Positions 14,546 through 31,830 of a DNA stretch of 31,830 nt are shown in pieces (position 1 is the stretch's first letter; each line of letters opens with the position of its first letter). Source of the stretch: a virus; the IMG/VR virus record IMGVR_UViG_3300030107_005800, positions 1 to 31,830 of that record; one strand, written 5' to 3'. Made by a program: the position numbers and the translations under genes. Under the pieces are notes generated by a model that saw only the letters and a list, made by a program, of their open reading frames with translations, did not search any database and was not told where the DNA came from.

Positions 14546-17500
14546 TTATGAATAGAATTTATCCAAAGCCCCAGTATCTCTTAAACCAATACCTCTTCTT
14601 TGAATAGATGGGAACGTAGTTAATCCTGAATCAACAGTCAATCCAGTTACTGCAATCGCCACTGGATTATTTCTTGTAAGAGAACCAGATAATCTACCCC
14701 ATGAGAATCTACCAACTGCATCCATCGAACTTCCTGTGGAAGTAAGACCAACTATTTGAGGACTATCTATTACATTACATGTAATAACTCCTGCATTAGC
14801 ACCATCATCCCATGGTTCGAAAGATACATTATAGATATTATCTAAAAATGTAGTTCCAATACCAACTACTCTATCATTTGCATCATAAATTGAAGTTACA
14901 CCAGTTCCTATTTGTGTATTGGAAATGTAAATAGGATAATTAATATTTAAATCACTATATCCTGTGCTATTTTTATATAAATTAAATTTCAGTGCTAAAG
15001 ATGTGCCATTACCTGTAGTTGTTCCAATACCAGTAACAATTCCAGAGAAACCTTTAACAACTGTTATATTTTCAACTAACTCAGAATCAAATGGTGGGAA
15101 AGATGCTAAAACACTTGGAACAGCACTTTGAGTGTATCCCCAACCAACATTGGTAGTAGTAATTCCAGTTATTACACCATCAGTTAAAGTTGCTGATACA
15201 GCAGCTGTAGATCCTATTCCCACAGTTCCATCTGACTGTAAAAATGTACCAATACCAACAGTAGGAATACCAACAGAAATTGTAGCAGATGTATATCCAC
15301 TACCACCATCAACAATATTAATAGATGAGATAGTGCCCGTATCAGAAACAGTAGCAGTTAATGCTGCAGCAACTCTATTTGTATTTCCAACAACTCTTCC
15401 TTGAGCCGGAGTGGATCCTGTTATCTTATTTTCTTCATTAAATAAATCAACATTATCTACAAATATTTCATTATCTGTAAGTGATAATTTACCGATAATT
15501 TTTGCTGTTGGGAAAATTAATGGTTCTAAACTATCTCTTGATTTAGAAATAATTCTACCATTAATTACCTTATCAACTTTTTGTTTTGACCAATTTAATG
15601 ATTTTTGTTCACTAGTAATGCCAGGTCCACCATATAAATTACTTTCTATAGTATCAGACGTTCTAAGAGATTCTACTATTCTAGATTCTTGATTAAATCT
15701 AGCATTTAAAATTCTATCGAGTTGAACATCATCACCCACTTTTATAGAAGGGTAGATATTAGAGACTAATGAAGAATCTGATTCGGAAGATCCTCTATAG
15801 AAGAATATAGTAACATCATCCGCAGCATTTGGTGCTTCTGTAAATACAAAAGAACTTCCACCTTCAAATTTATAAGCAAACTCAGGTTCTTGTATAACCC
15901 CATTTATAATAATCAATAAACAATTTGATAAATTAACTTTTCTGAAACTAGTTGCATCAGAAACTTCAAAACTTAAAAGTTCTCCATCATATCTCAATTC
16001 AAATCTCTTACGTGAACCATTCTGTAAGTCTTTTATAGAGTCAATATAATCAAACTGACCAAATTGCCAAGCACCAAAAGTATCGGAATAAGTATCCAAT
16101 ACCGTCATCTGGAATTCGGATAATGGAGATGCTAAACCAGAAGCAGTTACTAATCCAACAGGAGCCAATACATCTCCTTTCTTAAATCCATAACCCTTTC
16201 TTGCAATCTCCCAATGAGTGACTCCAAAATAAGTAGAAGAAGAACCTACAGTAGAACCTGAACCAATTTCTACATTTAATAATAAACCAGTTCCTGTCTC
16301 AGTAGTTGCACCAATTCCTAATCTAGAAACTCCAGTAACTTCTAAGTCGCTATAAGATGCAGAAGGAATATTGAAATAAGGATTTACATAATCTGTTCCA
16401 CCAGCACCAATAGTGAATATTAAAGTACCTCCTATCCCGACTGTGGCAGTAACATTTGCACCAGATCCTTGATTAGCTCCTACATTTGCTGTTAAAGTAT
16501 CAGAGGTATATGCAGTAATAGCAGTCATAAGACCAGCAACTGGATCAGTTGCTCTAGGATAAGTATGCTCAGTTGCATAATCATCTTTTGAACATGTAAA
16601 GGTTAAAGATCCTGTTCTAATTCCCACTGTATCAGCAGTAGTAAGACCGTGATTAGGAATTGTTAATACTAAATTTCCACTAGAAGGTGTATAGGATGCA
16701 CTTTGAGCAGTAAATGCTGCACCCACCCAACTATTAGCATATAAGGTAGTAGATATAGCACCTACAAATTTATGAGTATAAGAAACATCCGTTACGGCAA
16801 TAGCAACACTAGATCCTCTATATCCAGAACCAAAAGTAGCATTACCATACCATGGCATAACAGAACCACCCTGAACATAAGTATGAGGAATTGAATTAAC
16901 ACCAACATTGGTTGTAAATTTATTAGTAGCTCCAGTACCAATAATATTAAATACCACCGTTGTAGATCCAATTCCCACACTAGGATTAGATGGGAAGAAA
17001 TAAGTAGTTATTCCAGAATATCCACTCTTAACCATAACAGCATCACTAATAACCTGTGAAACAAATGTATGAATTCCTGCTGTAGGATCAACTGCAGTTC
17101 CTACACCAATAGTAACTGTGCTATTGGTAGTTGCAGTAATAGGAGTAGATATTCCAGCAATAGGATCACTCACACGTGGATAATCATGATCAGTAGCATG
17201 ACCATCCTTAGCACAAGTAAATCTTAAAGAACTAGTTTTTATTTGAATGTTTTGACCAATATGAAGATAATGATCACCAATAGTTAATTGTAAATCTCCT
17301 GTAGAAGGATTATAATCTGCATCATAAACATTAAAGGTGCCACCACATGTAAATTCCAATCCTACCATTCTAACTTGATTAACAATTCCAGCTTCAAAAT
17401 TATGCTCTTCAGATGTAGTAACTTCCAACAATCCCGTTAAATTATTATATGTCGAAGTCGTAATAGAAAGAGCAGGCCCAGTGGTTGCTACACCTACTAT

Positions 17501-20500
17501 TCTATTAATAACCCCCTCACTGTCTTTCTCTGCATATACTATTGCTCCTTGTGCTGGTGCATATCCTAATCCAGGAGTAGATCCTAAAGAAACAATTAAT
17601 CCACCTCTTGGTAGTTCATTTTGATTTACATCACTTTCATTAATAATTACAGGATCTTCTAGAGAAGTTCTAATACCTGTAAATCTAACACTACTTATTC
17701 CACTATTTTCAATAATTTGGAAATTATTGTTAGGATTATTTTCCGCAGTTGGATTTTGGAAAATATTTCCAATTAATACTAATCCATTACCTCCACTAGT
17801 TCCCAATCCAACCGTATTAATTCCACTATTTGTAAGAGTAAACGTTTGACCTATTCCAGTAAATTGATCCGAAATATCATCATATATTTGATTAGTATCA
17901 TAATTATTTCTAAAATATACTCTTCCATTAAAATCAGAAGTTGCATAATTTAAATTACTAGGTGTCTTAATTACTTGAGGATTTCCTTTAGGAGCATCAG
18001 TAAAGTGTATTTTTTCTCCAACAATTTTAAAGGATCCTCTGTAAATATTGATAGTAGAAGAATTAGAATGATTGGTTGCTGCAGATCCTACAAATCCTCT
18101 TTCAACCTCAATTAAATTTTCAGTTCCAATACCAGTAATTGGACCTACTGTAGTAGTTCCTACACCAACATTCAAAACCTTCATATATTCATTATCAATT
18201 TTTATTGTATCTTTAGAAGTTAAAGATGAAATTCCACTAATGGATAATATAGTTCTTGTGGTACTAATTCCAGTTCCTGTATCATCTGTATTATGTGATA
18301 GAGAATAGGATAGGGGAACATAGGCTAAAGGAGATTGAATTACATTGTCAATAGTAATAATAGACTTGGTATTACTCTTCGCCATTTCAAATTGATGAGC
18401 ATTTCCTGTTCCTACACCAATAAAAGTAACAGCACTACCACCTCTAGTTGTAGATATCTGGAATTGATCAGCATCGGTTCGAATTGCAAACACTGAAGAA
18501 GGAAGTTCGTCAATAGCTCCAGTTGAACTCTGATATAACATTGGAGTAGAACCAACACCCACAAATGTTGATCCAGGTGTATAAATTAACTCTTCATTTG
18601 TTCTAAAGAAATGATTATCAATATTAAAAGTATTCCCTCCTGATCCTATATCAATAATAGACGATATGGAAGGATCGAAAGTTTTAGCAAAAATCGGAGT
18701 ATTATCATTTGTTAATGTAAAACTAGTTCTATCAACTCTATTTCCACTAAGAGCATTATAATAATAAACATTAACCGAATCTACAACACCACCATAAGTA
18801 AGATCATTAGGAATATTAACTGAATCTACTAGTGTATATAAAATCTTATTGAAAGAAGAAACTTGAATATTATCACCAATAAATTCTGGTTCAGGATGGA
18901 ATTTTAATACAAAATCAGCAGAATCATATACTCCTTCAAAAGTTCCGATTCCTAATCTAGTATCAACTTCAATATCACCTGCATTTGAAAGAATTGGGCC
19001 TGATTGTGTATAAACATCAGTTGTATCATGATTCATCGTAATTTGATGAATTGCTCTAGTAGAACCCACACTTACTTCAACTACTGAATGAGATGCATTA
19101 AAGGAATTTTTATTTAAAGAAACAACCGTAGTAGTTCCTATTCCAACACCAAAATTGGATTGATAAATTGCAGTTCTTTCATTTCCTTCTGGTTGATTCG
19201 TGCTTCTAAATCTGTAGATATCAGTACCGAAAGAAGTTGAACCAAAACCAACTATATTTGACTTATATTCTATTTCATCACTTGAATCGTTTTCATATTT
19301 TAAAGAGAATGTGGATCCACTAAGATCCCCCTTCCAAGATCCCATTAAAGTATCAGAATAACCATCTCTTTGAGAATGAGTATCTGTATAATATTCGGCA
19401 ATAAAGGTATCTGTTCCATCGTGAGTCAAATAAGTCTCAACATAATTCATTTCACCCGTAGATTTATTAGTTACCTGATTTTTTACAAAGAATGAATTAA
19501 CTAGTGTAGAAGCAGCTGATACAATAGTTGTAGTTGTAACACCTGCAACACTATCTACTGTAGCAACCCCTATAGACCCTGTAAGATCGATAAAACCTAG
19601 TGAATTAGTACCAATACCATTATTGCTTGTAAAATCGCTTTCAATCGCTTTTAAATCATAATCATAATCATCAGCATTAGGTAATGGAGTAAACCTTAAA
19701 TAAGAATCTCCTTGAGCATCCTTTATAATTCCAAAAGAACCAATCCTCTCTTCATCTTCCAATTCATCTCTTTGTAAAAGAACTGACGTAGTTCCATTAT
19801 TCAATATTATTAAATCATTTGTTTGAACATCAGTTGTAGTAGGATTAGATATTCTCAATAAAATATTTTTAAAGGATACATTTGAATCTATTTTGAGTAT
19901 ATTCAAATAAGGACTAGGATCTCCAGCTAAATTAGAAAATTGATCTTTAATATTATCAATTACTAAAACTTCATTACTATTCAAATCTGTATATGGGGAT
20001 AATCTCTTACTACCAAATTTTATAAATCGAGAACGATCATTTACACCTAAATCACCTGCACTTAAAGTGCTTGAACCAATACTAACACCTAAATCAAAAG
20101 CAAAATCGTAATTATAAACAGTATCCACTCTATTATCTTCGATAACATCTTGAATTGAACTTACAAAACTACTACTTCCAATACCTACTGTCGATATGGA
20201 TGTAATTCCTGTATTAGCAAAATTCTTCAATCCACTAGTATGGAGTAAAGAAGTAACAGGACTTCTTAATTCGTCAAAAGTTCTAGAACTCTGAACCGCA
20301 TATGACATATTCTGATAATAATCATTATTTGGAGTTACTTGTGTATCTAAATTTAATGCTCCTATATTATCATTCCATCCAATATCCTTTTTAACCATGT
20401 AATCAACTAAAAATCTACCTTTATTTTCATTGACTTGATTAATAGTTCCTGTTGTTCCAGAATCTTTACCAGTAATAACTTCACCAACACTTAATCTATA

Positions 20501-23500
20501 ACTACCATCTACTTTAATAAAATCATTTTCACTACTTGTAATAACAAGATCTCTTTCAATATTATCAGAAAGAAGTTTTTCTCCTATATTAAATTGTGAA
20601 GGTTGAGTAGTTACTACAAAAGTAGGATAATCTTTTTTATTTACAAGAACTGATACAGAAGACTGATTGGTAACTGCTATTCCTGTATTTGTAGTTACTC
20701 CTGTAAAATCAATAGTAACAGCATCTTGGCTTCCTGTTATTGCTTCCACATAATTAGTAACCTTACCAAATCTATATCCCAAATCAGCAGAATTAAATCC
20801 AGAACCACCTGCACCCACTACACTAACGACTCCTTCCACATAAACTTCATCGTTGACCGCAAATGGAATGGTACTGAATCCTAATACAGGTGCAGTAATA
20901 TAACACGTAAATGATGAGGTAGAATCTGAGTAAATTGTATTAATACCTACACCATTTGAATTATTTACGGCAAATAATTCTACTCCTGAATCGGGTAACC
21001 CATTAGGAGCAACTAGAGTTTCAATTGAAGAAATTGTAGTATTATTTAATTTAACTTCTAACAAACCATTATCAATTTTTTCTCTACTAATAGAATCTAC
21101 AACATCAATAAGGGGAGGAATTAAATAATCACTACCACCATCTGTTACAGTAATAATACCAATAGTATTGGAATTTTCAGTAACGATAAGTGGAGAAATA
21201 TAAGATTGAGGTTGTAGTGTCTTATCAGATGAATATTCGAATCCCTCATTAAGAATTCTAACTTTATTTGAATTACCAATAGAATCTGATTTAGCAACAA
21301 CATATGCTCCTACTCCTTGAGTAGATGAAGATCCCACATAATTTGGCAATTTCTTATAATTAATACCACCAGATAAAATATTAATACCACTAATACCACC
21401 TGTAGCTGTTACCGATTTAGTAGTATAATCTAATGAAGAACATTCTGATAAATTATAAGATAATTTTTCTGGAACTTTTTCTAAAGAAATATCAAAAGTT
21501 GTATTACCTATACCAATAATATCATAAGACCCATTATAAGAACTATTAACAAATGTTATTTCAGAATAATTAGAAACCGATATATCACTAGTACTAATAG
21601 AACCAGATTTTTCCGTATTATAATATAATTTTTCTGGTAATAAATTGTCATAATTAACAGTAGAAGTAGCCTCACTAGATACACCTACTGTTCCAAAACC
21701 AACAACATTAAATGTGGTACCTGCAGTAGAAACAAATTCATTTTTAAACTCATTATCATAATATAACTTAAAGTTATAATCTTTCAATGAAGAATGAGAA
21801 AGATTAAAAACTATATTATTATTCCTAATAATCTCAAGTTGTGGATTTACCAAAGCAAGATATTGAGATACTCCACCAGTAGATCCTACACTAATTGTAG
21901 CTGGAGGATTTTTTTGAGAATCAATATAAGTTTCCGATAACTTTATAGAATCATCATCAACCTTATACACATAATAACTTTGTGAAGAAATTCCACTAGG
22001 TAAAAGATCACCATAATAAGAAACTTTATCACCAGTTTTTAAATTATGGGAAGTTAAATTTATTTGATCTGTAATTGTATTGATACCTGTTGAATTAAAT
22101 CCTATAGGATTAACTAAAAGATAACCTGTATCAAATTGTTTTTGAAGATTTATTGCTGTAGAATTTCCAATACCAACTGATAAATCTGGTTTAACATTAA
22201 GAGTTATATTATCATCCCTCTTCAAATTATGAGAAGTTGATATAGAAACTGTTGAAATTATTTTTTCAACCTTCCCCCTTACTTGTGGATATCTACTTTC
22301 CAAAGAGTAATTATCTTTATCATCACCACTACTATCTCGGAAATACACTTCCGAGAACATTGTTCCAATACCTGTTTTTATACCAATTGTATTTTTACCC
22401 TGATCGGAAATATAAACAATAGAGGGTAAATCAAATTTTCCACCAGTTGGTGAAGTTGAAATGGATATACTTGTATTACCATCCCTATTAAATGTTACTT
22501 GTTGATTATTATTAAATGGATGATTATTAAGATAAATTCTTTGCGTTAAAATATCTCTAGTAATATCTACACCACCAAATTCAAATGTCATAGTGGAAGA
22601 AATACCACTTACAGTTCCAAACCCAACATCTTGACGAGGATTGAAATAAGTTTTCTTATTTGCAGAAGATTCAAAATATTTTACATTTTTACCAATATTT
22701 CCAATATCAAAAGAATCGGGTACATAAGAAACTATAGAAGTTGCAGTGTGTGCAATACCTGTTACCCCTCTTTCAACCTTTAATAAATTACTTTCTTCAT
22801 AAATATTCAACAATCTTAAAGTTTCAGTTCCAATTTTTAAACTACTTCCTACTGAAACAGTTGATGGAATTCTAGAAACCCATATCTCTGTAGTTAACCC
22901 TACAGTGGAGGATTCTAATGGATAAGTTAAAGATGCTAAAGAAGTTGTAAGACCAACAAGATGTTGACCATTTAATTCTGATAGTTGAGTAGAAAAACCA
23001 GAAATAACAATGTTATCATTATTTTCCCAATCATGAGAAGGTGAAATATTAACCTTTACCTTATTTTCATCTTCCCAAGTAAATACAACATTACTAAAAG
23101 TGCTAACAGCTGTGCTAACATTTACTATATCTTTACCTTTTAGTGATGAAACTTGAGCTATAACTCCACTACCACCAGCAGTAATACTATCAAATGTTAA
23201 GGAATCCTTAATTTTATAGTTATCACCAGCAGAAACAATGTCTAATTTTTCAACTGAACCTGATGTTACTGATTCTATGATGGATTTTTGCCTTGAAATT
23301 TCATTAGTTTCAATTATAAAGTCATTATCAGCATTTGGATCGGCAACTTTATAAGGAAATGTGTTTCTAATAAGGTCAGATTGGGAAAAATCGAAGGATT
23401 GATCCATATTTTGGTCTAATGGAACCGATCTATAAGCATCTCCAACAAAATAGGGGAATTGTGGGTCATTATTAGTGTCTAATGTCGCAAAATATGCATA

Positions 23501-26500
23501 AATTCCGTCAGGAAATTCTGGAGTTTTACCAAATCTACCATTATTTTGGTCTAAATCACCAGAATTTGTAAATTTATAGTCTTCTACAAAAAATCCTGCC
23601 GCAAAATCGTTAAGTGAGGGTCTATCAATGATATTAGAGGTGTCAATTTCATAACCAGAGACCATTCTTCTTACTGAAAGGTCAGTATTGGGGTCTGAAT
23701 ACCCATAAGGCCCATAAATGGGATTACCATCATATGCCCATCCAATGATATCAGACACTTTTGTGTCATTTTCACCAAAAGACTCTATATAATCTTCGGT
23801 TAAACCACCAATACTATACTGTAAATTACTTCCAGTATCTAATAACAACTCACTCGTTCTATATTTTTTGTTTATATCTATAGATAATGGTCGAATACTA
23901 ACATCTAACAGTGCATTTTTACCTGCAGATACAACATTTATTGTCGTATCAATGCTAGAATACCCAATACCAGGATTAACAATCTTAACAGATGATATTT
24001 TATTGTTAGTAATAACTGGTCTAAGTTGAGCTCCACTACCTTTTCCACTCCCATCTGTAATAACTAGGTCTGGAATGGAGAAATATTCACTACCACCATA
24101 TTGTAAATTAACAGCTTCAACTCTTCCATTAACTATTAATGGGTTTAATTGACCATCTTTACCATTTTTTATTGAAATTATAGGTTTTTTCTCAAAATTT
24201 AAGACCGAAGATCCATAACCAGTACCTGTTTCGTAAAGATAAGCATCAATAATCTCTCCTCTTACTGTAGGAGTAAGATTTATACTTTCAACAGTTTGTG
24301 TATCAGTTCCAAATCCCAGAGGAATATACTGTAAAGATACTATAATAGGAGGATATGCAAAATTATGATATCCAGTACCAGTAGATCCCAAACTTACATA
24401 TTTTCCACTATTGTAATTAGATGCTATTGTGGCACCTAAACCAGCATTAGCAAGTCTAAATGAATGTTCATCAATTTTAATAACCTTATATTGATTAGTT
24501 GTGGTTAATCCCGATATAGCATTTCCAGTAGTAGAGTATTCAACAACTTCACCTTCACTAAATCCATGATTATTAAAGGTAATACTATCATAATTTGTTG
24601 AAATACCACTAGGTTTAACAATTAATTTTCTATTTGTAAAATTACCACTTTCAACTACTTCAACACCAGTAACAGATTTTTGAGATGGAAGAGTAGCAAA
24701 TTTATGAACTCCAGAAAGGTTAGTAGCGGCAAATCCAACTGTATTAATACCTACGATGGAATCACTACGTGAATTATATAATTGAACTGTAGTATTGTTA
24801 ATTACATTTACAAAATAAGAAGAACTATTAACTAGATAAGCATCACCCACGAAACTACCAATACCAATTCCACCATTTCCATTCGACTGATATATTACTT
24901 GTTGATGATTCTGAAAATAATGATCATCTAAAAATGTAAGGTAACCTGTAGAAGTATTAATTCCCCCAGAATTGGTAGTTGCTCTACCATCAAAATCAAC
25001 AACTCTTGCTTTTTTTGTTACTAAAGTTTTTAAAACTGCAGTAGAATTACCACCAGTAACTCCAATAGATACCACACTATTAATATTGAATCCTTGAGGA
25101 TCTACATAAACCTTGGAAATCTTTCCACTAATTACAGGTTGAATTAATGCAGTATTTCCACTACCAGCAGAAACTTCTAATTTAGGGAGGTCAATAACAT
25201 CATAATCACTTCCACCATTTAAAACATTTACTGTTTTTAAAGGACCATAATAAATTTTATCATTAGATTTATAATTCGTAATTTCTACTCCATCAATCAT
25301 CATTCCAATTGATCCTGTAGGAGTTTTAACTTGAGTTCCTCTATTAATAGTAGAATCTAAAGAAAACTTTTTAAGTAGTTTTTGAGGCCCAATTACATTA
25401 GATTTCTGAGAAAATAATGTAAATTTGTGACTAGTAACAGTGGTACCAATTCCAGAAGAAATACTCAAATCTATATTATCTTGATCTCCTATAAAAGATC
25501 TAGAATTATAAAGTTTCATTTGCTTTGGATTTGTAGTTACTAATCCAACATAATATCTTCCAGTTTCCAATCCTGCATAAGTGACAGGTTCAACTGTGGA
25601 TATACCAGATGATACATTATAATAAACTTCATCACCATCAATAAAAGGAACTGAAGATCCAAAAGAAATTATTCCATATTTTTCTGTAAGAGAATTATAT
25701 TGAGTTAAACCAGTAGAAACTAAAGATTGAATATTAAGATCAATTGTGTTGACAAAACTAGTCGTAACACCGCTAATTGCTGCTGATGGTAAAGAATTAG
25801 AAGCTACATAAGCAGTATTTCCATTTCCTACATATAAGTTCTGCGTATCAGATATTATCTTATTAAATTCTAAGGGAACTATAGTGCTACCTGCATAATT
25901 TATTCTTCTTCTAATATCATATTCTTCGGTTGAAGACCATGCAATAGAATCACTAATTGTTATATCTGTACCATTAACAATGTTCAGAACATATACTCCA
26001 CCATTTTCCCCTAAAACTACATTATTGGTTCCTCTTAAAACTATTTCAATCTGATCATCTTTTTTAAGACTTGATCTATCTACTTTTCCTAATGATATAC
26101 ATTCGGTTCCACTTACACTTCCTAACTTATATCTTACACTTGTATTATAAATCCATGAATTAGCAAAAATTTCTTTATATGTTTTATTAAGAGTAGGATT
26201 TTCTATTAAATCTCCAATATTATTAACAGAAATTATTTGACCTTCATCTATAGTAATATTCTTTGATACTTGTTCAAATTTTGATAATACTCCAGTAAGT
26301 CTTAATTTTACTTTTTTAGTAACATCTCCATCTTCATAACCATAATAAGTTTCATCATTTGTTACTACAGATGTTGACTCAATTTCAGAATCAATACCAG
26401 TACAACCAAAGAATTGATCAATACTTTTAGATGTATATTTAATATTAGTATTGTTATCAGAAATAAGATTTCCTGTTTGCCCAAATCCTACTGTAGAATC

Positions 26501-27502
26501 TACAGAAATTACAGAAGATCCAATAGCAACAGTTTGTAGACATTTAGATGCAGGTGTAATTGTAAAATCACCCTGTATTGTAGAAGCAGAATCATCATAA
26601 CCAAGAAAAAGAGAAATTCTAAAATACTGCTTATTTTCAGTTAAAGCTACTCCAACCCTACTAAATGCTTCAACTTCAGAAATTGCTGCATTAGTATCAG
26701 AATCTGATTCTTTAAATAAAGTTTGACCAACTAATTTTAAAGGATCACCTGAAATTACATCGGCTATTACGATTTCTCTTCTAATAAAATTAGCTGATGA
26801 AGGTTTAAGTAAATAATCTTCTAAATTGACAATTTTAGGGGTTTCACCATAAAGAACATTAAATAAAATCCTATAAGATTCTTCAGTTCCTTTAGATTCA
26901 TATAATGACCTTGCTTCTTTTATAAAATTACCTGCATTTACACCATCTGCAAAATCAACCTGTTCTAATCCTGGTGTTAAGGTAGATTTCTGTTTTTTAT
27001 AAAATTCTTTAAGGAATAAAGAACTCAAATTCGTTATTTGTGAATCATTTGAATGTTCTTCTGCTGTAGTATCACTAAAAACCAAGTCTCCTTGATTTAA
27101 TACTTGATGATAACTGGTAATACCACAAAATCCCCTAATACACCCCGTAAATGTGTTAGTAGTTAATCCTGTATATGTAATAACTTCATCATCAATTTTT
27201 AATAATCCATATTCATTCGGAAATCCTTTAGTACTACTGACATTTATCGTAGTAGCACCTGTAGTAGTAATACCTACAGTTGTAGTGTTATCAACCACTA
27301 CATCTGGTGTTAAATTATCTAATTTTAAATATTGATCTAAATTATCTGTAATATCAACAGGGCCACCCTGATACTCTTGAGAAATATAATATTGCTTTAA
27401 AAAATCTACCGCATTAGGGTTTTCGCTTACTACATATTGCGGAAGTTGATTGTCAATTATTTGCTGAATCTTAACTTTAGATTCAAAACCAGTCTGTATC
27501 AT
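14546..27502 (-). CDS. gp7: Giant gp7-like baseplate wedge protein with YHYH domain
   Basis: The 4318-residue product lies between 6 and 8, the place of T4 gene 7 (1032 residues). Residues about 28-60 and 160-280 (AVDFLKQYYISQEY, FIKEARSLYESKGTEESY, RILFNVLYGE, LVGQTLF) resemble the C-terminal part of T4 gp7 (FYSTKG.EASYKFLFKVLYNE...LVGQTIY). Between them, at 86-133, sits an RG...H module. Residues 1235-1360 form a YHYH-type domain (GWAYDGNPIYGPYGY at 1254-1268, NGRFGKTPEFPDG at 1321-1333, YAYFAT at 1335, FPYF at 1349). Much of the rest is tandem beta modules: GxGY...P units, two more RG...H modules (about 1545-1590 and 3096-3155), FTC...YPR modules (3385-3690), and NVIQ.P modules (about 3055, 3248, 3866). 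The frame is uninterrupted. It is likely a wedge scaffold with a very large peripheral extension; the role of the extension is unknown. Confidence 0.83.
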   Translation of the reverse strand: MIQTGFESKVKIQQIIDNQLPQYVVSENPNAVDFLKQYYISQEYQGGPVDITDNLDQYLKLDNLTPDVVVDNTTTVGITTTGATTINVSSTKGFPNEYGLLKIDDEVITYTGLTTNTFTGCIRGFCGITSYHQVLNQGDLVFSDTTAEEHSNDSQITNLSSLFLKEFYKKQKSTLTPGLEQVDFADGVNAGNFIKEARSLYESKGTEESYRILFNVLYGETPKIVNLEDYLLKPSSANFIRREIVIADVISGDPLKLVGQTLFKESDSDTNAAISEVEAFSRVGVALTENKQYFRISLFLGYDDSASTIQGDFTITPASKCLQTVAIGSSVISVDSTVGFGQTGNLISDNNTNIKYTSKSIDQFFGCTGIDSEIESTSVVTNDETYYGYEDGDVTKKVKLRLTGVLSKFEQVSKNITIDEGQIISVNNIGDLIENPTLNKTYKEIFANSWIYNTSVRYKLGSVSGTECISLGKVDRSSLKKDDQIEIVLRGTNNVVLGENGGVYVLNIVNGTDITISDSIAWSSTEEYDIRRRINYAGSTIVPLEFNKIISDTQNLYVGNGNTAYVASNSLPSAAISGVTTSFVNTIDLNIQSLVSTGLTQYNSLTEKYGIISFGSSVPFIDGDEVYYNVSSGISTVEPVTYAGLETGRYYVGLVTTNPKQMKLYNSRSFIGDQDNIDLSISSGIGTTVTSHKFTLFSQKSNVIGPQKLLKKFSLDSTINRGTQVKTPTGSIGMMIDGVEITNYKSNDKIYYGPLKTVNVLNGGSDYDVIDLPKLEVSAGSGNTALIQPVISGKISKVYVDPQGFNINSVVSIGVTGGNSTAVLKTLVTKKARVVDFDGRATTNSGGINTSTGYLTFLDDHYFQNHQQVIYQSNGNGGIGIGSFVGDAYLVNSSSYFVNVINNTTVQLYNSRSDSIVGINTVGFAATNLSGVHKFATLPSQKSVTGVEVVESGNFTNRKLIVKPSGISTNYDSITFNNHGFSEGEVVEYSTTGNAISGLTTTNQYKVIKIDEHSFRLANAGLGATIASNYNSGKYVSLGSTGTGYHNFAYPPIIVSLQYIPLGFGTDTQTVESINLTPTVRGEIIDAYLYETGTGYGSSVLNFEKKPIISIKNGKDGQLNPLIVNGRVEAVNLQYGGSEYFSIPDLVITDGSGKGSGAQLRPVITNNKISSVKIVNPGIGYSSIDTTINVVSAGKNALLDVSIRPLSIDINKKYRTSELLLDTGSNLQYSIGGLTEDYIESFGENDTKVSDIIGWAYDGNPIYGPYGYSDPNTDLSVRRMVSGYEIDTSNIIDRPSLNDFAAGFFVEDYKFTNSGDLDQNNGRFGKTPEFPDGIYAYFATLDTNNDPQFPYFVGDAYRSVPLDQNMDQSFDFSQSDLIRNTFPYKVADPNADNDFIIETNEISRQKSIIESVTSGSVEKLDIVSAGDNYKIKDSLTFDSITAGGSGVIAQVSSLKGKDIVNVSTAVSTFSNVVFTWEDENKVKVNISPSHDWENNDNIVISGFSTQLSELNGQHLVGLTTSLASLTYPLESSTVGLTTEIWVSRIPSTVSVGSSLKIGTETLRLLNIYEESNLLKVERGVTGIAHTATSIVSYVPDSFDIGNIGKNVKYFESSANKKTYFNPRQDVGFGTVSGISSTMTFEFGGVDITRDILTQRIYLNNHPFNNNQQVTFNRDGNTSISISTSPTGGKFDLPSIVYISDQGKNTIGIKTGIGTMFSEVYFRDSSGDDKDNYSLESRYPQVRGKVEKIISTVSISTSHNLKRDDNITLNVKPDLSVGIGNSTAINLQKQFDTGYLLVNPIGFNSTGINTITDQINLTSHNLKTGDKVSYYGDLLPSGISSQSYYVYKVDDDSIKLSETYIDSQKNPPATISVGSTGGVSQYLALVNPQLEIIRNNNIVFNLSHSSLKDYNFKLYYDNEFKNEFVSTAGTTFNVVGFGTVGVSSEATSTVNYDNLLPEKLYYNTEKSGSISTSDISVSNYSEITFVNSSYNGSYDIIGIGNTTFDISLEKVPEKLSYNLSECSSLDYTTKSVTATGGISGINILSGGINYKKLPNYVGSSSTQGVGAYVVAKSDSIGNSNKVRILNEGFEYSSDKTLQPQSYISPLIVTENSNTIGIITVTDGGSDYLIPPLIDVVDSISREKIDNGLLEVKLNNTTISSIETLVAPNGLPDSGVELFAVNNSNGVGINTIYSDSTSSFTCYITAPVLGFSTIPFAVNDEVYVEGVVSVVGAGGSGFNSADLGYRFGKVTNYVEAITGSQDAVTIDFTGVTTNTGIAVTNQSSVSVLVNKKDYPTFVVTTQPSQFNIGEKLLSDNIERDLVITSSENDFIKVDGSYRLSVGEVITGKDSGTTGTINQVNENKGRFLVDYMVKKDIGWNDNIGALNLDTQVTPNNDYYQNMSYAVQSSRTFDELRSPVTSLLHTSGLKNFANTGITSISTVGIGSSSFVSSIQDVIEDNRVDTVYNYDFAFDLGVSIGSSTLSAGDLGVNDRSRFIKFGSKRLSPYTDLNSNEVLVIDNIKDQFSNLAGDPSPYLNILKIDSNVSFKNILLRISNPTTTDVQTNDLIILNNGTTSVLLQRDELEDEERIGSFGIIKDAQGDSYLRFTPLPNADDYDYDLKAIESDFTSNNGIGTNSLGFIDLTGSIGVATVDSVAGVTTTTIVSAASTLVNSFFVKNQVTNKSTGEMNYVETYLTHDGTDTFIAEYYTDTHSQRDGYSDTLMGSWKGDLSGSTFSLKYENDSSDEIEYKSNIVGFGSTSFGTDIYRFRSTNQPEGNERTAIYQSNFGVGIGTTTVVSLNKNSFNASHSVVEVSVGSTRAIHQITMNHDTTDVYTQSGPILSNAGDIEVDTRLGIGTFEGVYDSADFVLKFHPEPEFIGDNIQVSSFNKILYTLVDSVNIPNDLTYGGVVDSVNVYYYNALSGNRVDRTSFTLTNDNTPIFAKTFDPSISSIIDIGSGGNTFNIDNHFFRTNEELIYTPGSTFVGVGSTPMLYQSSTGAIDELPSSVFAIRTDADQFQISTTRGGSAVTFIGVGTGNAHQFEMAKSNTKSIITIDNVIQSPLAYVPLSYSLSHNTDDTGTGISTTRTILSISGISSLTSKDTIKIDNEYMKVLNVGVGTTTVGPITGIGTENLIEVERGFVGSAATNHSNSSTINIYRGSFKIVGEKIHFTDAPKGNPQVIKTPSNLNYATSDFNGRVYFRNNYDTNQIYDDISDQFTGIGQTFTLTNSGINTVGLGTSGGNGLVLIGNIFQNPTAENNPNNNFQIIENSGISSVRFTGIRTSLEDPVIINESDVNQNELPRGGLIVSLGSTPGLGYAPAQGAIVYAEKDSEGVINRIVGVATTGPALSITTSTYNNLTGLLEVTTSEEHNFEAGIVNQVRMVGLEFTCGGTFNVYDADYNPSTGDLQLTIGDHYLHIGQNIQIKTSSLRFTCAKDGHATDHDYPRVSDPIAGISTPITATTNSTVTIGVGTAVDPTAGIHTFVSQVISDAVMVKSGYSGITTYFFPSNPSVGIGSTTVVFNIIGTGATNKFTTNVGVNSIPHTYVQGGSVMPWYGNATFGSGYRGSSVAIAVTDVSYTHKFVGAISTTLYANSWVGAAFTAQSASYTPSSGNLVLTIPNHGLTTADTVGIRTGSLTFTCSKDDYATEHTYPRATDPVAGLMTAITAYTSDTLTANVGANQGSGANVTATVGIGGTLIFTIGAGGTDYVNPYFNIPSASYSDLEVTGVSRLGIGATTETGTGLLLNVEIGSGSTVGSSSTYFGVTHWEIARKGYGFKKGDVLAPVGLVTASGLASPLSEFQMTVLDTYSDTFGAWQFGQFDYIDSIKDLQNGSRKRFELRYDGELLSFEVSDATSFRKVNLSNCLLIIINGVIQEPEFAYKFEGGSSFVFTEAPNAADDVTIFFYRGSSESDSSLVSNIYPSIKVGDDVQLDRILNARFNQESRIVESLRTSDTIESNLYGGPGITSEQKSLNWSKQKVDKVINGRIISKSRDSLEPLIFPTAKIIGKLSLTDNEIFVDNVDLFNEENKITGSTPAQGRVVGNTNRVAAALTATVSDTGTISSINIVDGGSGYTSATISVGIPTVGIGTFLQSDGTVGIGSTAAVSATLTDGVITGITTTNVGWGYTQSAVPSVLASFPPFDSELVENITVVKGFSGIVTGIGTTTGNGTSLALKFNLYKNSTGYSDLNINYPIYISNTQIGTGVTSIYDANDRVVGIGTTFLDNIYNVSFEPWDDGANAGVITCNVIDSPQIVGLTSTGSSMDAVGRFSWGRLSGSLTRNNPVAIAVTGLTVDSGLTTFPSIQRRGIGLRDTGALDKFYS
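16440..17450 (-). repeat. Diverged tandem repeat, FTC...YPR module (protein level)
   Basis: Within the gp7-like giant, the pattern SG.L.LTI..H.L......I.T.SL.FTC.KD..AT.H.YPR..DP.AG..T.ITA occurs in full twice, with FTC at residues about 3428 and 3634. A third copy, truncated right after GLEFTC (about 3385), precedes them. The module occurs in many marine phage virion proteins. At DNA level the copies have diverged, so the duplication is old. Confidence 0.7.
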
Positions 27503-27503
27503 A

Positions 27504-29459
27504 TTACTGTCGTATTAATTGTCCGTTAGAATAACTAGAAGTGTAGAAGTCTTTAATAAAGGTGGTGCCTGTTATCTCATCACCAGAACTAATAACATCT
27601 CTCACCATATTTATTTTACTTTTTGAAAGACTTAAATTGAGATACAATTCTTTCAATCCAACCACGTCATTTGATTCGGGTATAGCTTGTATTTCTATAA
27701 TATTACTTGTATTAAAAGTAGAAGTGATATTTATCGTATTTAATATAACTTCACCCTTAATATAATCAACTGTTCCTGCATTTTGAGCAACAACGTTGTA
27801 TACACCCTCATTATCAATTTCGATAAGTGCAATAATACCTCCTTTTAAGTTACTATTAGGAATATCAGTTAAATATACTGTTTTATTACTTCCACTTACC
27901 TTAAATCCAGTAGATTTAATGTTACCACCTGCAGGAATTACATGGAATTGGTTACCATAACACAATTCATATTGAGCAAACTGATTAATAGCTGCTTTTA
28001 AATCTCTTCTAATCTTAACTTTTGTTATATTAGAGGTAATTGCAGTATCTGTATTATCAATTACTTGCTGAATTTTACTATATTTGAATCTTCCACCAAA
28101 TTTGTTCATATCTACCGAATTTCCATAGGCAGTAAGTGAATTAACCACCTGTGTTAGTAAAGAAGAAGGTGATGAAACCTTTGTATTGTCAAAATAGACT
28201 GCAGAATCAATTTCAACATATAACATTTTAAGATCTGTTATTTTTTGATTGATTCCTGATACTGTATATTGCTTTAATTTTGATAAAATCAAAGATTTGT
28301 TAAAATCAGAGACAAATGAACCATTTTTTGGTTTTATACTGATATAAACATTACCAAATTCAGGTGGATCCATTTCTTCACCTCCTACAACCGCAACAGA
28401 TTCAGTATCTGGGTAAATTTGCTTAATTATTGCCTCATAATCTCTGGGTGTAACTGCCCTATATTGGGAGGAATAGATCCGAGGGGCATAATACTTAATT
28501 GAACTCACATCTTCTATGTCAGACCCATTCTGAGATGCCTGGTTGGTGATAACAACAGGTGATTCAGTTAATAAAAGAGTTTGAGATTGTGTTTGATCGG
28601 TATTTAAAGAAATAAATTTTCCAGAAAAGGAAAATGAGTTGTCAAACCCTACACCATTACCTTCTTTACCATCTGTAATGATATATTGAACGGTAATAAC
28701 AGCTTCATTCTCTAATTTTTTACCAATATGACCATCTCCAAATAATAATTCGTATCTTTGGTCTTGTACTTCCTGTATTAAGAATATTTCCGAAGTTCCA
28801 TCAACATTTAATATGTTATTTACTAATGAATACTCATTACCAAGTGCTCCATCGGCATTTCCATCACTTTCACCAGGAGGATTAACATATACTTTAATTG
28901 TAGAGGTATCTATTCCTGTATTATCTAATACAAATCTTTGATCTAACGATGCATCTACCTTAAATGTCTTAGTTAAAAAGGTACCTTCTCTAATATTGAG
29001 ATTTGAGAATGTAGATTGATATCTTCCATTAATAAATTGTATAGGTGATGATACATTCTCTGGAGTAGAGAACACATACGAAGTATCAGATGCATTTCCT
29101 GTGCACACTAAACCTGCCTGTAAGGTTGCTATATTGACTCCAGGGTTAGTGTTTCCGAAGTTAGCAACGAATGTTATCTCTGCTGTTGCTGCCGTCTTAG
29201 AACGTGGTACATATCCAATATTTCTTGCCAATGAAACTACATTTTCTCTCACTGTAGCAGAGTCTAAAAAAGACTCATTTACAATCATATTAGAGTTAAA
29301 TGCAGTAATGTAAGTATTATAAGCTAACGTATCAATTAAAACAGAAAAATTAGACCCCTCAAAGTCAAATCCCGTAAACGTAGAGTTAGCACGGAGATAA
29401 TCTTTGATAGAGGTCTTTATTTGATCAAAATCAAGGTTTTGGAATTTGGTAAAGGGCAT
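27504..29459 (-). CDS. gp6: Baseplate wedge subunit gp6
   Basis: gp6 is the universal baseplate wedge protein (baseplate J-like in simpler phages); in T4 its dimers form the ring around the hub that triggers contraction. The 651 residues compare with T4's 660. Characteristic stretches are the N-terminal DFDQIKTSIKDYLRANSTFTGFDFEGSNFSVLID (given here only as landmarks DYLRAN, DFEGSNFSVLID), then LAYNTYITAFNSNMIVNESF, ARNIGYVPRS, a YELLFGDGHIGKKLENEAVI segment, and APRIYSSQYRAVTPRDYEAI with IYPDTESVAVVGGEE. The last two are the conserved Baseplate_J core. It begins one base after the gp25 stop and is followed one base later by the gp7-like ATG, so all three are co-transcribed from the late promoter upstream of gp25. 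Confidence 0.94.
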   Translation of the reverse strand: MPFTKFQNLDFDQIKTSIKDYLRANSTFTGFDFEGSNFSVLIDTLAYNTYITAFNSNMIVNESFLDSATVRENVVSLARNIGYVPRSKTAATAEITFVANFGNTNPGVNIATLQAGLVCTGNASDTSYVFSTPENVSSPIQFINGRYQSTFSNLNIREGTFLTKTFKVDASLDQRFVLDNTGIDTSTIKVYVNPPGESDGNADGALGNEYSLVNNILNVDGTSEIFLIQEVQDQRYELLFGDGHIGKKLENEAVITVQYIITDGKEGNGVGFDNSFSFSGKFISLNTDQTQSQTLLLTESPVVITNQASQNGSDIEDVSSIKYYAPRIYSSQYRAVTPRDYEAIIKQIYPDTESVAVVGGEEMDPPEFGNVYISIKPKNGSFVSDFNKSLILSKLKQYTVSGINQKITDLKMLYVEIDSAVYFDNTKVSSPSSLLTQVVNSLTAYGNSVDMNKFGGRFKYSKIQQVIDNTDTAITSNITKVKIRRDLKAAINQFAQYELCYGNQFHVIPAGGNIKSTGFKVSGSNKTVYLTDIPNSNLKGGIIALIEIDNEGVYNVVAQNAGTVDYIKGEVILNTINITSTFNTSNIIEIQAIPESNDVVGLKELYLNLSLSKSKINMVRDVISSGDEITGTTFIKDFYTSSYSNGQLIRQ

Positions 29460-29460
29460 T

Positions 29461-29862
29461 TTATCTTGTTGACTCTAAGAGGAATGAATATTCTTGTGCA
29501 GGAAACTCTTGTCCAACAATATCATAATATACCGTTACTTCAAATGTATTTTCGTCTGGTTGTGGATTAACCAATACTCTTACATCATCAATTCTAGGTT
29601 CAAAGTTGTCTAGTGCAACTCCAATTTGTTCCCGAATTGTTGTAGCGGTTCCAAAATCAACAAAATTAAATAGACTATCATAAACGTCAGATCCAAAGAC
29701 AGGATTAAAAAACTTTTCAGTAGGGATAGTTTGAACTATATTACGTACTGATCTGCGAATAGCATCTTCATTTTTTAATACCTTCAGATCATTTGTGATA
29801 GGATGAGGAATAAAGGATAAACTAATATCTTTATATGCTCTTGATATCCTTTTAATAGTCAT
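29461..29862 (-). CDS. gp25: Baseplate wedge subunit gp25 (GPW/gp25 family)
   Basis: gp25 joins gp6 and gp53 in the inner baseplate wedge and contacts the first sheath ring. The 133 residues equal T4's length. Family features are an N-terminal RISRAYKDISLSFIPHPIT, then DAIRRSVRNIVQTIPTEKFFNPVFGSDV, then the GPW/gp25 motif with an EPR core (DNFEPRIDDVRVLV) and a terminal strand VTVYYDIVG. It is the first gene of the first late unit, with a TATAAATA box 19 bases before its ATG. No clear Shine-Dalgarno sequence is visible. Despite the old 'lysozyme-like' name in databases, there is no sign of an active lysozyme site. Confidence 0.95.
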   Translation of the reverse strand: MTIKRISRAYKDISLSFIPHPITNDLKVLKNEDAIRRSVRNIVQTIPTEKFFNPVFGSDVYDSLFNFVDFGTATTIREQIGVALDNFEPRIDDVRVLVNPQPDENTFEVTVYYDIVGQEFPAQEYSFLLESTR

Positions 29863-29880
29863 TGAACAAAGGTTTATATT

Positions 29881-29888
29881 TATTTATA
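29881..29888 (-). promoter_or_regulatory. T4-type late promoter box TATAAATA
   Basis: A perfect TATAAATA on the minus strand, inside GGTATAAATAAATATAAAC, lies in the 42-base spacer between the 48-codon gene and gp25, 19 bases before the gp25 start. The second half (AATATAAA) is a weaker shifted copy. It is expected to drive 25, 6 and the gp7-like giant. Confidence 0.8.
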
Positions 29889-29904
29889 CCCAGTTCTTAA
29901 TATT

Positions 29905-30051
29905 TTATTTTCCTTGGCCTCTTCTTTTCTTACGAGCCGAGTTACGAGAGGTCGCCGCATACTTTGTATGTTTGCCATTTCCTTGACGAGTTTTCTTCGG
30001 GGGTGATTGAATAAAATCCCCTCCACTTACTCCACCACTTGCTTTTGCCAT
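29905..30051 (-). CDS. Small, highly basic conserved phage protein (48 aa)
   Basis: The frame from ATG 30049-30051 to TAA 29905-29907 encodes 48 residues. The N-terminus is glycine- and serine-rich (MAKASGGVSGGDF), followed by QSPPKKTRQGNGKHTKY and a C-terminal SRNSARKKRRGQGK. About a third of its residues are Lys, Arg or His, and there is no hydrophobic core, so it is probably disordered and able to bind nucleic acid or another acidic partner. I recall very similar small genes (GGDF...SPPKKTRQG...K.TSRNSARK) in marine T4-like phages near gp25, which supports it as a real gene. The role is unknown. It starts 2 bases after the upstream stop, so it is co-transcribed with the 55-codon gene. Confidence 0.82.
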   Translation of the reverse strand: MAKASGGVSGGDFIQSPPKKTRQGNGKHTKYAATSRNSARKKRRGQGK

Positions 30052-30053
30052 AA

Positions 30054-30221
30054 TTAGTCTTCTGTGTAAATTTCAGTTTTAATACTATCAGGAGTTGGAG
30101 AACCTGTCTGATAAAATTCAAGAGCATAGTCCTCCATTATATTGAAGTATTCTCCCTGCCCTAGAGCAGTGTATACTTCTTTACCGTTTATAAAGATCTT
30201 ATATAACTCTGGTTTTTTCAT
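30054..30221 (-). CDS. Small acidic conserved phage protein (55 aa)
   Basis: ATG 30219-30221 to TAA 30054-30056 gives 55 residues: MKKPELYKIFINGKEVYTAL, then GQGEYFNIMEDYALEFYQTG, then SPTPDSIKTEIYTED. It has a short strand-strand-helix look and an acidic C-terminus. Similar proteins (MKKPELYKVF..NG.E...EYF..MEDLA..FY.TG.P.P) are, from memory, a recurring small gene of marine T4-like phages. The start lies inside the end of the glycosyltransferase-like gene (23-base overlap, different frame), which suggests coupled translation. Function is unknown. Confidence 0.8.
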   Translation of the reverse strand: MKKPELYKIFINGKEVYTALGQGEYFNIMEDYALEFYQTGSPTPDSIKTEIYTED

Positions 30222-30954
30222 GCCCGACTCTTACACGAGGATCGCACCAAATTTCGAAACCTGCGTCTTTTGCATCAAGACAGAAAGAGACATCTTCTCC
30301 ACACATGTCTTGAACTTCGCCACTTTCGAAAACTTGCATCTTAGGAGCGAACCATGGGTAAGGTAGACCTTCATGTTCGAATACACCGTTCTTAATTAAA
30401 AGCCATCCGAAACCTGTATAATCTACTGTAAATGGTTTTTTACGCTTGGATATACTTTCGATAGTTTCGTGATTCATCACTCCACCGTTGTTACGAAAAT
30501 CATCCTCATCTAACCAATGTGCTACAGAGGTAGTCTTACCATCTTCGGTGCAATACCATCCTGCTGCAATATCCTTCTGCATAAGAATTAATTGCCAGAA
30601 CTTTTCAGTATTAAAAACAATATCGGAATCAATCCATAATTGCCAATCATACTTTAATTTTCCATCCCATGGAATTTGATTTGGGCCTCTGAGAACATTT
30701 GCTCCAAGACACTTACATCTTGCAAAGTTCACCATTGAACTATAATCTTGAGATATCTGAATACTTGCACCACACTGAACAAGATCAAAACAAAGTTGAA
30801 CGAATGCCTTTAAGAAGTTGTAAGAAACTCCTCTACCTGGTAGACAAAAAACTATTGCTTTTCCTTTAACAATATCCTTAGCGTGATCATAATCCCATTC
30901 AGGTCCTTTTGCCACTGTGGGAGTCTTTGCTTTTACTGTAAATCCTTTAGCCAT
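30199..30954 (-). CDS. Glycosyltransferase-like protein (GT-A fold, DxD)
   Basis: The 251-residue protein has the features of a small GT-A type transferase, which moves a sugar from a nucleotide sugar using a divalent metal. A Rossmann-like start is visible at residues 32-40 (KAIVFCLPG). The metal-binding DSD motif is at 109-111 within WQLWIDSDIVF. Then come AAGWYC (130-135), GFGWLLIKNGVFE (181-193), PYPWF (198-202), GEDVSFC (219-225) and a late GH (244-245) that could complete metal binding. The N-terminal 25 residues are extra and lysine-rich. Similar stand-alone genes occur in cyanophage genomes. The acceptor is unknown: virion protein, phage DNA and host envelope are all possible. A sigma70-like promoter just upstream suggests earlier expression than the structural block. 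Confidence 0.75.
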   Translation of the reverse strand: MAKGFTVKAKTPTVAKGPEWDYDHAKDIVKGKAIVFCLPGRGVSYNFLKAFVQLCFDLVQCGASIQISQDYSSMVNFARCKCLGANVLRGPNQIPWDGKLKYDWQLWIDSDIVFNTEKFWQLILMQKDIAAGWYCTEDGKTTSVAHWLDEDDFRNNGGVMNHETIESISKRKKPFTVDYTGFGWLLIKNGVFEHEGLPYPWFAPKMQVFESGEVQDMCGEDVSFCLDAKDAGFEIWCDPRVRVGHEKTRVI

Positions 30955-30976
30955 AACGTTTTGTAATTACATCAAT

Positions 30977-31005
30977 ATCATACAGCATTATATAGTATTT
31001 GTCAA
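30977..31005 (-). promoter_or_regulatory. Sigma70-type promoter (TTGACA, 17 bp, TATGAT)
   Basis: On the minus strand a perfect -35 box TTGACA (31000-31005) is followed after exactly 17 bases by TATGAT (30977-30982), one mismatch from the consensus TATAAT. It ends about 22 bases before the ATG of the glycosyltransferase-like gene. The -35 overlaps the TGA of the 55-codon gene upstream. A host-sigma (early or middle) start is inferred. Confidence 0.7.
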
Positions 31006-31169
31006 TATGAAGATTCTTCGTATTCTTTGTGGGGGTTTTCCGTAATCTCTGAAAATGTTAACTCTGAATTATAGTCTCTATTAAGTAATGGCCATATAAG
31101 TCTAAACTGCATTTCACTAAGTTCTTTAAATATACAACGTTCCTTGAAATATATGTGATATTCCTTCAT
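31002..31169 (-). CDS. Small phage protein (55 aa), partner of AbrB-like gene
   Basis: ATG 31167-31169 to TGA 31002-31004 encodes 55 residues: MKEYHIYFKERCIFKELSEM, then QFRLIWPLLNRDYNSELTFS, then EITENPHKEYEESSY. The start overlaps the AbrB-like stop as ATGA and is preceded by a strong purine-rich ribosome-binding stretch (AAGGAAAGGAAAGA), so translation is coupled and probably efficient. The MK.YHIY.K..C.F..LSE..F...W..LN pattern is one I recall from small genes next to AbrB-like genes in marine T4-like phages. The predicted form is a short beta-hairpin followed by helix. Function is unknown; the arrangement resembles a two-gene regulatory or antitoxin-toxin type pair, but no toxin motif is visible. 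Confidence 0.72.
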   Translation of the reverse strand: MKEYHIYFKERCIFKELSEMQFRLIWPLLNRDYNSELTFSEITENPHKEYEESSY

Positions 31170-31339
31170 TCTTTCCTTTCCTTGATAATGGCTTCATCAC
31201 CATCAACGTTCCATTGAATTTCACTCTCTTCATATAAATTCAGATCATTGATAACCTGCTCTGGTATCGTTGTATAATACTCCCCACTTACTGTATCGAT
31301 CTCTATGGTCGAAAAAATTTCCCCAAAATTTTTCTGCAT
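31166..31339 (-). CDS. AbrB/MazE-like swapped-hairpin small protein
   Basis: The likely product has 57 residues starting at ATG 31337-31339 (MQKNFGEIFSTIEID), followed by VSGEYYTTIPEQVINDLNLY, EESEIQWNVDGDEAIIKERK and a final E. The order of a strand, then T-x-P-x-x-(V/I)-x-x-x-L, then W-x-x-x-G-(D/N)-x-(A/V)-I-I is that of AbrB/SpoVT/MazE swapped-hairpin DNA-binding domains or antitoxins. The frame could extend upstream to GTG 31418-31420 (84 residues). However, those 27 extra codons run through an AT-only stretch with direct repeats that looks like leader DNA, so the internal ATG is preferred. It probably acts as a dimer and may bind its own leader repeats (inference). It is coupled by ATGA to the next gene. 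Confidence 0.65.
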   Translation of the reverse strand: MQKNFGEIFSTIEIDTVSGEYYTTIPEQVINDLNLYEESEIQWNVDGDEAIIKERKE

Positions 31340-31359
31340 ACCTGTAAATCCCTGTATTG

Positions 31360-31390
31360 TTTTTATATAGCGAAAAAAATTTTTATATAG
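31360..31390 (-). promoter_or_regulatory. Two 11-base direct repeats in leader of AbrB-like gene
   Basis: CTATATAAAAA (minus strand) occurs at 31380-31390 and again at 31360-31370, exactly 20 bases (two helical turns) apart, with A/T-only DNA between apart from a CG. A second pair, TACAGG, recurs at 31351-31356 and 31341-31346, 10 bases apart, just before the ATG. The TATATAAAA cores could be -10 or late-type promoter elements; the spacing also fits a dimer-binding operator. No direct evidence separates the two. Confidence 0.45.
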
Positions 31391-31436
31391 AGAGGAAAAC
31401 ACAGCTGCCTTGGGTAACACTTTGTAGGTTAGGGAA

Positions 31437-31465
31437 GTTGCCCTTTTTTATAAACGGGGGGCAAC
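31437..31465. repeat. Inverted repeat GTTGCCC ... GGGCAAC
   Basis: A perfect 7-base stem (31437-31443 with 31459-31465) encloses a 15-base loop containing six T's. It lies between the GC-rich edge gene and the AT-rich leader of the AbrB-like gene. No U-tract follows on the minus strand, so it is not a classical terminator, although it may still contribute to stopping transcription from the edge gene. Confidence 0.45.
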
Positions 31466-31480
31466 ACGGCGGGGCGGCAA

Positions 31481-31499
31481 CCCCCCGATCAACGGGGGG
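31481..31499. repeat. GC-only hairpin CCCCCCG ... CGGGGGG
   Basis: A perfect 7-base GC-only stem has a 5-base loop (ATCAA on the plus strand). It lies 25 bases after the stop of the edge gene in that gene's direction of transcription. It is very strong for this AT-rich genome. It could stop transcription or protect the mRNA end, or mark a sequence junction; no T-run follows it directly. Confidence 0.5.
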
Positions 31500-31524
31500 A
31501 CTGTCTGATTAACGAACGCATGAC

Positions 31525-31830
31525 CTATTTGGCAAATGCGACAAACCGATCATTTTGAAAATTAGCATATGAGAAGGCACGGCGATTAACCAGTTTGAAA
31601 TATCCAAACCGACTGACCATGACGTACCCCTCACCCTGAATAGGTTGAGGATCACCCATCACGCATGTCTGAAAGTCTGACTCATCTTTGCAACTCTGTA
31701 ATGCTGCCAACTTGATTTCATTTACAGTATGCCAGAGTTCGATCAACGACGCATCACATAAACCCGCCCACTCAAACGCATCGCTGTCAATGTCTTTGCC
31801 GTCACGGATGAGAGCGTTAATGTTCAATTT
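31525..31830 (-). CDS. Unrecognised GC-richer open frame, 5' end probably outside window
   Basis: The frame ends at TAG 31525-31527 and is open to the window edge. The first possible start inside is TTG 31825-31827, giving 100 residues, so the true start may lie beyond. I do not recognise the family. The protein begins with an acidic helical half (KDIDSDAFEWAGLCDASLIE, LWHTVNEIKLAALQSC, KDESDFQTCVMG) and ends with a compact beta part (PIQGEGYVMVSRFGYFKLVN, RRAFSYANFQNDRFVAFAK). There are three cysteines and no signal peptide or membrane segment. Two fully counted lines (31621-31680 and 31741-31800) are about 52% GC, clearly above the AT-rich structural genes. It may belong to a separate transcription unit or a transferred segment. 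Confidence 0.5.
   Translation of the reverse strand, partial: KLNINALIRDGKDIDSDAFEWAGLCDASLIELWHTVNEIKLAALQSCKDESDFQTCVMGDPQPIQGEGYVMVSRFGYFKLVNRRAFSYANFQNDRFVAFAK

Follow-up and report, generated by a model that had tools for sequence, protein, structure and literature searches.

A conserved GC-rich element with a predicted late promoter and leader, next to the structural genes of T4-like cyanophages

The window, by which we mean the whole stretch of DNA analysed (a complete virus record of 31,830 bases, IMG/VR IMGVR_UViG_3300030107_005800), ends on its right side in a GC-rich stretch that is a real, conserved element of the T4-like viruses of Synechococcus and Prochlorococcus. We consider it reasonably probable that this element marks the border of two transcription units, its hairpin serving as insulation and its late promoter and conserved leader opening the structural operon. 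On the minus strand the element has four parts in the order box A, GC hairpins, TATAAAAA and a leader box with a less constant tail. These parts and their immediate neighbours are as follows.

31525..31830, minus strand: C-terminal 101 codons of a DUF6267 gene (phrog_455; PF19782, E 2.5e-13), the start of which lies beyond the contig.
31500..31523, minus strand: box A, TCATkCGTTCGTkAATCAGACAGT, just after the DUF6267 stop codon; identity 0.81–0.82.
31481..31499, no strand assigned: hairpin 1, CCCCCCG/CGGGGGG with a 5-nt loop; found at the same place in relatives, its stem often flipped to GGGGGGC/GCCCCCC.
31437..31465, no strand assigned: hairpin 2, GTTGCCC/GGGCAAC with a 15-nt loop; lineage-specific, with the TATA box inside the loop.
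31445..31452, minus strand: late-promoter-like TATA box TATAAAAA (P1), assigned from the AAAA at a fixed distance in relatives and the NATAAATA late motif.
31420..31438, minus strand: leader box ACTTCCCTAACCTACAAAG, assigned from its conservation and single copy; predicted transcription start at about 31439.
31380..31389, minus strand: second TATA-like box TATATAAAAA (candidate P2), assigned from the test for downstream TATAAA/TATATAA in representatives.
31360..31369, minus strand: third TATA-like box TATATAAAAA, adjoining the first gene, assigned from its sequence and the same downstream test.

An earlier note on this DNA had described a shift to GC-richer sequence from about 31430, two perfect 7-base stems and a 100-residue gene of higher GC. 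The shift is real, with GC rising from 32.5% (1–31420) to 58.2% in the spacer (31430–31520) and standing at 44.5% in the gene (31521–31830), values unmatched by any stretch of 91, 310 or 401 bases within 1–31420. Three of the four runs of six G or C in the window fall here, at 31456, 31481 and 31494. Both stems (31437–31465 and 31481–31499) are exact, and two such stems within 81 bases arose in 0.23% of 3000 dinucleotide shuffles (P = 0.0023). The gene does have the higher GC (44.5%), with a GC3 of 0.47 relative to 0.11–0.21 in the genes tested between 333 and 29862, but it is not a 100-residue unit: a search with the protein identified it as the C-terminus of DUF6267 (PF19782; phrog_455), and it is the 3' end of a longer gene that starts beyond the contig. 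Full-length relatives are 303–320 aa long (one lies at L002:1245-2195). A frameshift in this gene, first suspected, was ruled out, as the frame is intact. No tRNA or tmRNA was found.

The right part of the window matched T4-like cyanophages of Synechococcus and Prochlorococcus, and a search with the right-end protein returned 37 other IMG/VR contigs that DNA comparison showed to be collinear with the right end of the window. In 37/37 of these the spacer was followed by a phrog_661 gene and, beyond it, phrog_1574, and gp25 was present in 35. The isolate S-SKS1 has the order DUF6267, two small hypothetical genes, the element (with a variant box), one small gene and the gp25 region. These results bear on an assembly chimera at 31430–31530, one of the origins that had been proposed. 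A chimera would accord with a contig that stops shortly after this point and with the ends of relatives' contigs clustering on the same side, but since 37/37 independent contigs have the same gene, spacer and downstream gene in the same order, and S-SKS1 has its genes arranged alike apart from small intervening ones, it is ruled out and we give it a negligible probability. The earlier note had itself named the same gene and composition at this place in related phages, together with even coverage by spanning reads, as what would speak against its reading, and all 37 contigs have the same gene.

The conservation of the element was measured on the window and its 37 protein-found relatives, none of which was picked by motif. 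In these 38 sequences, mean pairwise identity in 10-base bins was 0.92 and 0.87 over the leader box (core 0 to +19) and 0.81–0.82 in the two bins covering most of box A, vs 0.34 in the hairpin spacer. The leader box is near-invariant, with the consensus ACTwCCCTAACCTACAAAG. A pattern scan of IMG/VR returned at least 120 stretches, which serve as a sample; the 118 pattern loci are those without L003 and L084. The latter is a chance match with no conserved flanks and was left out of the contig-end, stem and downstream-gene counts and of alignment A1; L059, L077 and L119, in which the box matches and the usual upstream part does not, were kept. By blastn, the element of Syn30 matched 298 phage records and that of L042 matched 322, of which one was a Mycobacterium phage and the rest were cyanophages or marine viruses. 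Variants of the box are carried by S-SM2, RN05-S, S-SRM01 and S-SKS1.

The element occurs as one copy per genome in 16/16 records searched with model R1; no second full copy of the box was found in these 16 records, and no further copy within 3 mismatches was found in the window. RN05-S (L165), the record of which opens inside the element, has an extra partial copy at its other end. The core pattern, in which 22 bases are fixed and one is free, had no exact match in 84,980 bacterial and archaeal species genomes. No Rfam 15 family matched the window or 7 related loci at gathering score, the best lax match scoring 15.3 bits relative to a cutoff of 45. A literature search with the box sequence as text returned nothing, and one for a transcript start at the element found none, most subscription papers lying outside the scope of both; a description elsewhere is possible. 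Within Rfam and the literature searched, therefore, no family or paper describes the conserved leader.

The same sample indicates why the right end resembled a break. Over 89 loci among the matches listed, mean GC in the spacer was 58.1%, compared with 42.8% on its upstream and 37.5% on its downstream side; it exceeded both flanks in 84/89 of these listed loci and the upstream 1 kb was GC-richer than the downstream in 63/89. In some relatives the interval from DUF6267 to the element has extra genes or lacks some; L029, for instance, has a phrog_2053 gene there. A further relative has at this place, at L013:1710-1877, a HicA-toxin gene (PF07927, E 7e-8) just upstream of the faintly antitoxin-like phrog_661; the HicA-like gene is absent in the window. 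Contigs among the matches listed ended within 2 kb upstream of the element in 62/118 cases and downstream in 8/118, with 20.2 expected on each side if ends were uniform. Thus, the break in the window's record falls at a usual place, presumably through gene-content diversity or extreme GC; dropout at GC and hairpins or a diversity effect is a likelier cause of the clustering than a physical genome end.

Horizontal acquisition of the right end, with a border of no shared function, had also been raised. It draws on the GC difference between the flanks (63/89 loci, means of 42.8 vs 37.5%, among the matches listed), on the variable inserts beside the element, including the HicA-like gene, and on the GC3 of 0.47 in the DUF6267 piece. 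Against it, relatives of DUF6267 occur in 283 phage records, all from cyanophages or marine viruses, and in hundreds of contigs, and throughout the group the spacer and box have been retained, in conserved synteny. What holds of this proposal is that a cluster of small genes, variable and richer in GC, borders an AT-rich structural module here; the spacer is in itself a regular, conserved feature of the phage group, and we regard the proposal as a whole as highly improbable.

Hairpin pairing is kept in relatives while the letters of the stems change or flip. Among the matches listed, a perfect stem of at least 6 bp was present in 45/101 non-redundant spacers (8.65 expected, shuffle maximum 16 in 100 shuffles) and one of at least 7 bp in 22/101 (2.4 expected, maximum 6); the stem arms in these matches were of 21 kinds, with the 5' side G-rich in 25 and C-rich in 19. 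Also among the matches listed, the mean fold z was -1.0 for 102 spacers, -1.12 for the opposite strand and -0.11 for downstream sequence. Since the reverse strand folds equally well, the hairpins do not tell the strand. The single-sequence folding energy of the window's own spacer is unexceptional for its composition (z -0.7 and -1.3), and among the relatives compared in the alignment the stem at 31437–31465 is confined to the window and its closest relatives. A GC-rich stem-loop conserved as a structure, as in an intrinsic terminator, is present, but a terminator scan of 29000–31830 on both strands found no T-tract directly after a stem and no terminator, and termination at the hairpins is thus a guess. 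Within the leader, no consistent covarying stem was apparent by eye. Pairing between the sequences on either side of the leader box was rejected, as these change without matching each other when compared by eye.

Next to the hairpins lies the predicted promoter. The late promoters of cyanophages are given as NATAAATA (S-PM2) in the accessible text of PMC2984593, and that of T4 as an 8-bp TATA box with its first base at -13 in the accessible text of PMC2988020. The T4 octamer is TATAAATA, and the window has TATAAAAA, one base off NATAAATA. We examined 77 representatives among the matches listed, omitting L029, L030 and L041 for their variant core. AAAA was found at -15/-14 from the core in 71/77 of these listed representatives; strict TATAAA/TATATAA stood at the TATA-box site in 34/77 (9.9 expected) and a looser form in 58/77; and TATAAA/TATATAA occurred at +38..+120 in 52/77 vs 9.9 expected from shuffles. 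If the first T of TATAAAAA (31452) is taken as position -13, the predicted start falls at about 31439, the point at which conservation increases. This agreement between the start site and the onset of near-invariant sequence is suggestive support, at the level of sequence, for the promoter reading, and it would make the first 20–35 nt of the predicted late transcript the conserved leader.

Downstream of the leader on the minus strand follows the structural unit, and these genes were named on that side of the window.

31166..31339, minus strand: first downstream gene, phrog_661 (E 4e-9), 57 aa, faintly AbrB/PrlF-antitoxin-like (sub-threshold to the PrlF antitoxin model).
30199..30954, minus strand: phrog_1574 protein of the downstream unit, glycosyltransferase-like, from weak matches to phage glycosyltransferase families.
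29461..29862, minus strand: baseplate wedge gp25 of the downstream unit (PF04965, E 2.1e-15; phrog_261).
27504–29459, minus strand: gp6.
12925–14514, minus strand: gp8.

Between gp6 and gp8 a single ORF of 4318 aa (14546–27502, minus strand) forms a very large gene of the structural region, as does an ORF of 2461 aa at 5533–12918. In S-SRM01, the gene adjoining the gp6 counterpart is annotated as baseplate wedge initiator.

The element keeps its position and orientation relative to this unit. Among the matches listed, 109 of the 118 pattern loci have at least 1 kb downstream, and in 107/109 of them a gene for phrog_1574, gp25 or a gp94-like structural protein follows within the next 9 kb, read in the same direction, with none reversed. 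The first downstream gene in these 109 listed loci was phrog_661 in 58, phrog_707 (gp91) in 39, phrog_2626 in 1 and of no matched family in 11. Since the first gene differs while the box stays, we infer that the element belongs to the transcription unit and not to one gene. In annotated phages with both flanks, it has small hypothetical genes on one side (gp90 in Syn9) and the structural region on the other.

Overall, the transcription-unit border, one of the options that had been named for the right end, is supported, with its promoter and terminator roles predicted. On the minus strand, the upstream unit would be the variable small-gene cluster, here ending with DUF6267, and the downstream unit the structural (baseplate) genes. 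The GC-rich hairpins at the border would probably stop or insulate transcripts coming from upstream; the TATA box right after them is expected to be recognised by RNA polymerase with gp55, the late sigma factor of the phage; and after the leader, one or two more TATA-like boxes would precede the first gene. The leader would act in cis, on initiation, elongation or the stability of the long late transcript.

Two other readings of the conserved box deserve weighing. If P1 yielded a separate short RNA (~60–80 nt) with host or phage RNA as its target in trans, the operon would use its own P2, and the second TATA-like box (52/77 representatives among the matches listed), the A/T-rich tract before P2 in several relatives and the conservation of the box while the first gene changes would all be accounted for; no terminator was found between box and gene in the window, there is no Rfam match, and we judge such an RNA rather unlikely. 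The box may instead be a DNA site (a replication origin, or a packaging or phage-protein binding site), with the hairpins as cruciforms. Its single copy per genome, its long invariant stretch, for which no RNA stem is supported, and its AT-rich composition beside GC-rich hairpins are consistent with this, as are the assemblies that often end nearby and the RN05-S record that opens inside the box. The constant orientation in front of one operon (107/109 loci among the matches listed) and the onset of conservation at the predicted transcript start argue against a DNA site, and for an origin in particular, the cumulative GC skew of Syn9 and S-SM2 has no extremum there, a weak test as coding is one-sided; we consider a DNA site unlikely.

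Beyond the transcription-unit border itself, we tentatively suggest a bolder possibility, to which we give a good deal less credence: that the leader, ACUwCCCUAACCUACAAAG-GUU..., is an undescribed regulatory RNA common to marine T4-like cyanophages. It would start the predicted late structural transcript, be insulated by fast-evolving GC hairpins and be independent of the first gene, and could be, for example, a processivity or antitermination signal for the long baseplate operon or a short trans-acting RNA. The sea is rich in T4-like cyanophages, whose switch to structural genes has for the most part been extrapolated from T4. The near-invariant, single-copy box in front of the structural operon, present in about 300 genome records, offers a concrete site for testing, and the element helps to explain why many metagenomic cyanophage contigs end here.

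The gene upstream of the border can also be given a testable function, as the DUF6267 family is likely to be an RNA-ligase-like nucleotidyltransferase, judging from motifs and from the ranking of a predicted fold. K34, D36, G37, Q103, D105, E283, G284 and K295 were invariant in 51/51 aligned rows, and we take these residues to represent ligase motifs I (KxDG), IV (EG) and V (Lys). KxDG (K34, D36, G37) is present in the family, in a part of the gene outside the window, and EG and the motif V Lys (E283, G284, K295) are present inside the window as EGYVM and FKLV. With an AlphaFold model (pLDDT 88.5), nucleic-acid ligases filled the best 28 rows of a Foldseek search, at a best E of only 8e-3, and all of the best 50 rows of VIA-align, with RNA ligases on top and Z no higher than 7.9, under the trust level of the tool. 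The VIA-align matches included Naegleria RNA ligase (Z 7.9, rmsd 3.7, 173 aligned), T4 Rnl1 (Z 6.6, rmsd 3.8, 155 aligned) and T4 Rnl2 (Z 6.2, rmsd 4.2, 177 aligned); being below 8, these Z values are weak, and the fold by itself is no proof. The family profile found no ligase among the sequences of solved structures, where its three matches (E 0.11 or worse) were not used, and a literature search returned no paper naming the family, most subscription papers lying outside its scope.

Compared to known systems, DUF6267 shares with the ATP-dependent RNA ligases of Naegleria and T4 (Rnl1, Rnl2) the KxDG and EG motifs and the downstream Lys, and ligases take the top fold ranks, if at weak E and Z; it has a helical stretch before the EG motif and is a predicted ligase only. 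The cyanophage psbA leader and promoter region is also a long intergenic region with early and late promoter motifs and, in cyanomyoviruses, a 5'-UTR hairpin, but it belongs to another gene and place, and the present box is not mentioned in the accessible text of its description (PMC5931967). With the gp55-dependent late promoters of the T4 type, the element shares an octamer rich in A and T that precedes structural genes, a spacing compatible with the predicted start and no need of a -35 element; it differs in having TATAAAAA in place of NATAAATA, GC hairpins directly upstream and near-invariant sequence past the predicted start, and neither such hairpins nor such sequence is described for T4 or cyanophage late promoters in the accessible text of PMC2988020 and PMC2984593. 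The element resembles an intrinsic terminator in that a stop codon closing a gene cluster is followed by a compact hairpin rich in G and C, the stem of which is kept while the sequence changes; it differs in that the window stem is without a T-tract. The put-type antitermination RNA of lambdoid phages is an element that heads a long operon independently of the first gene, and the present element resembles it by analogy only, in its position at the operon head.
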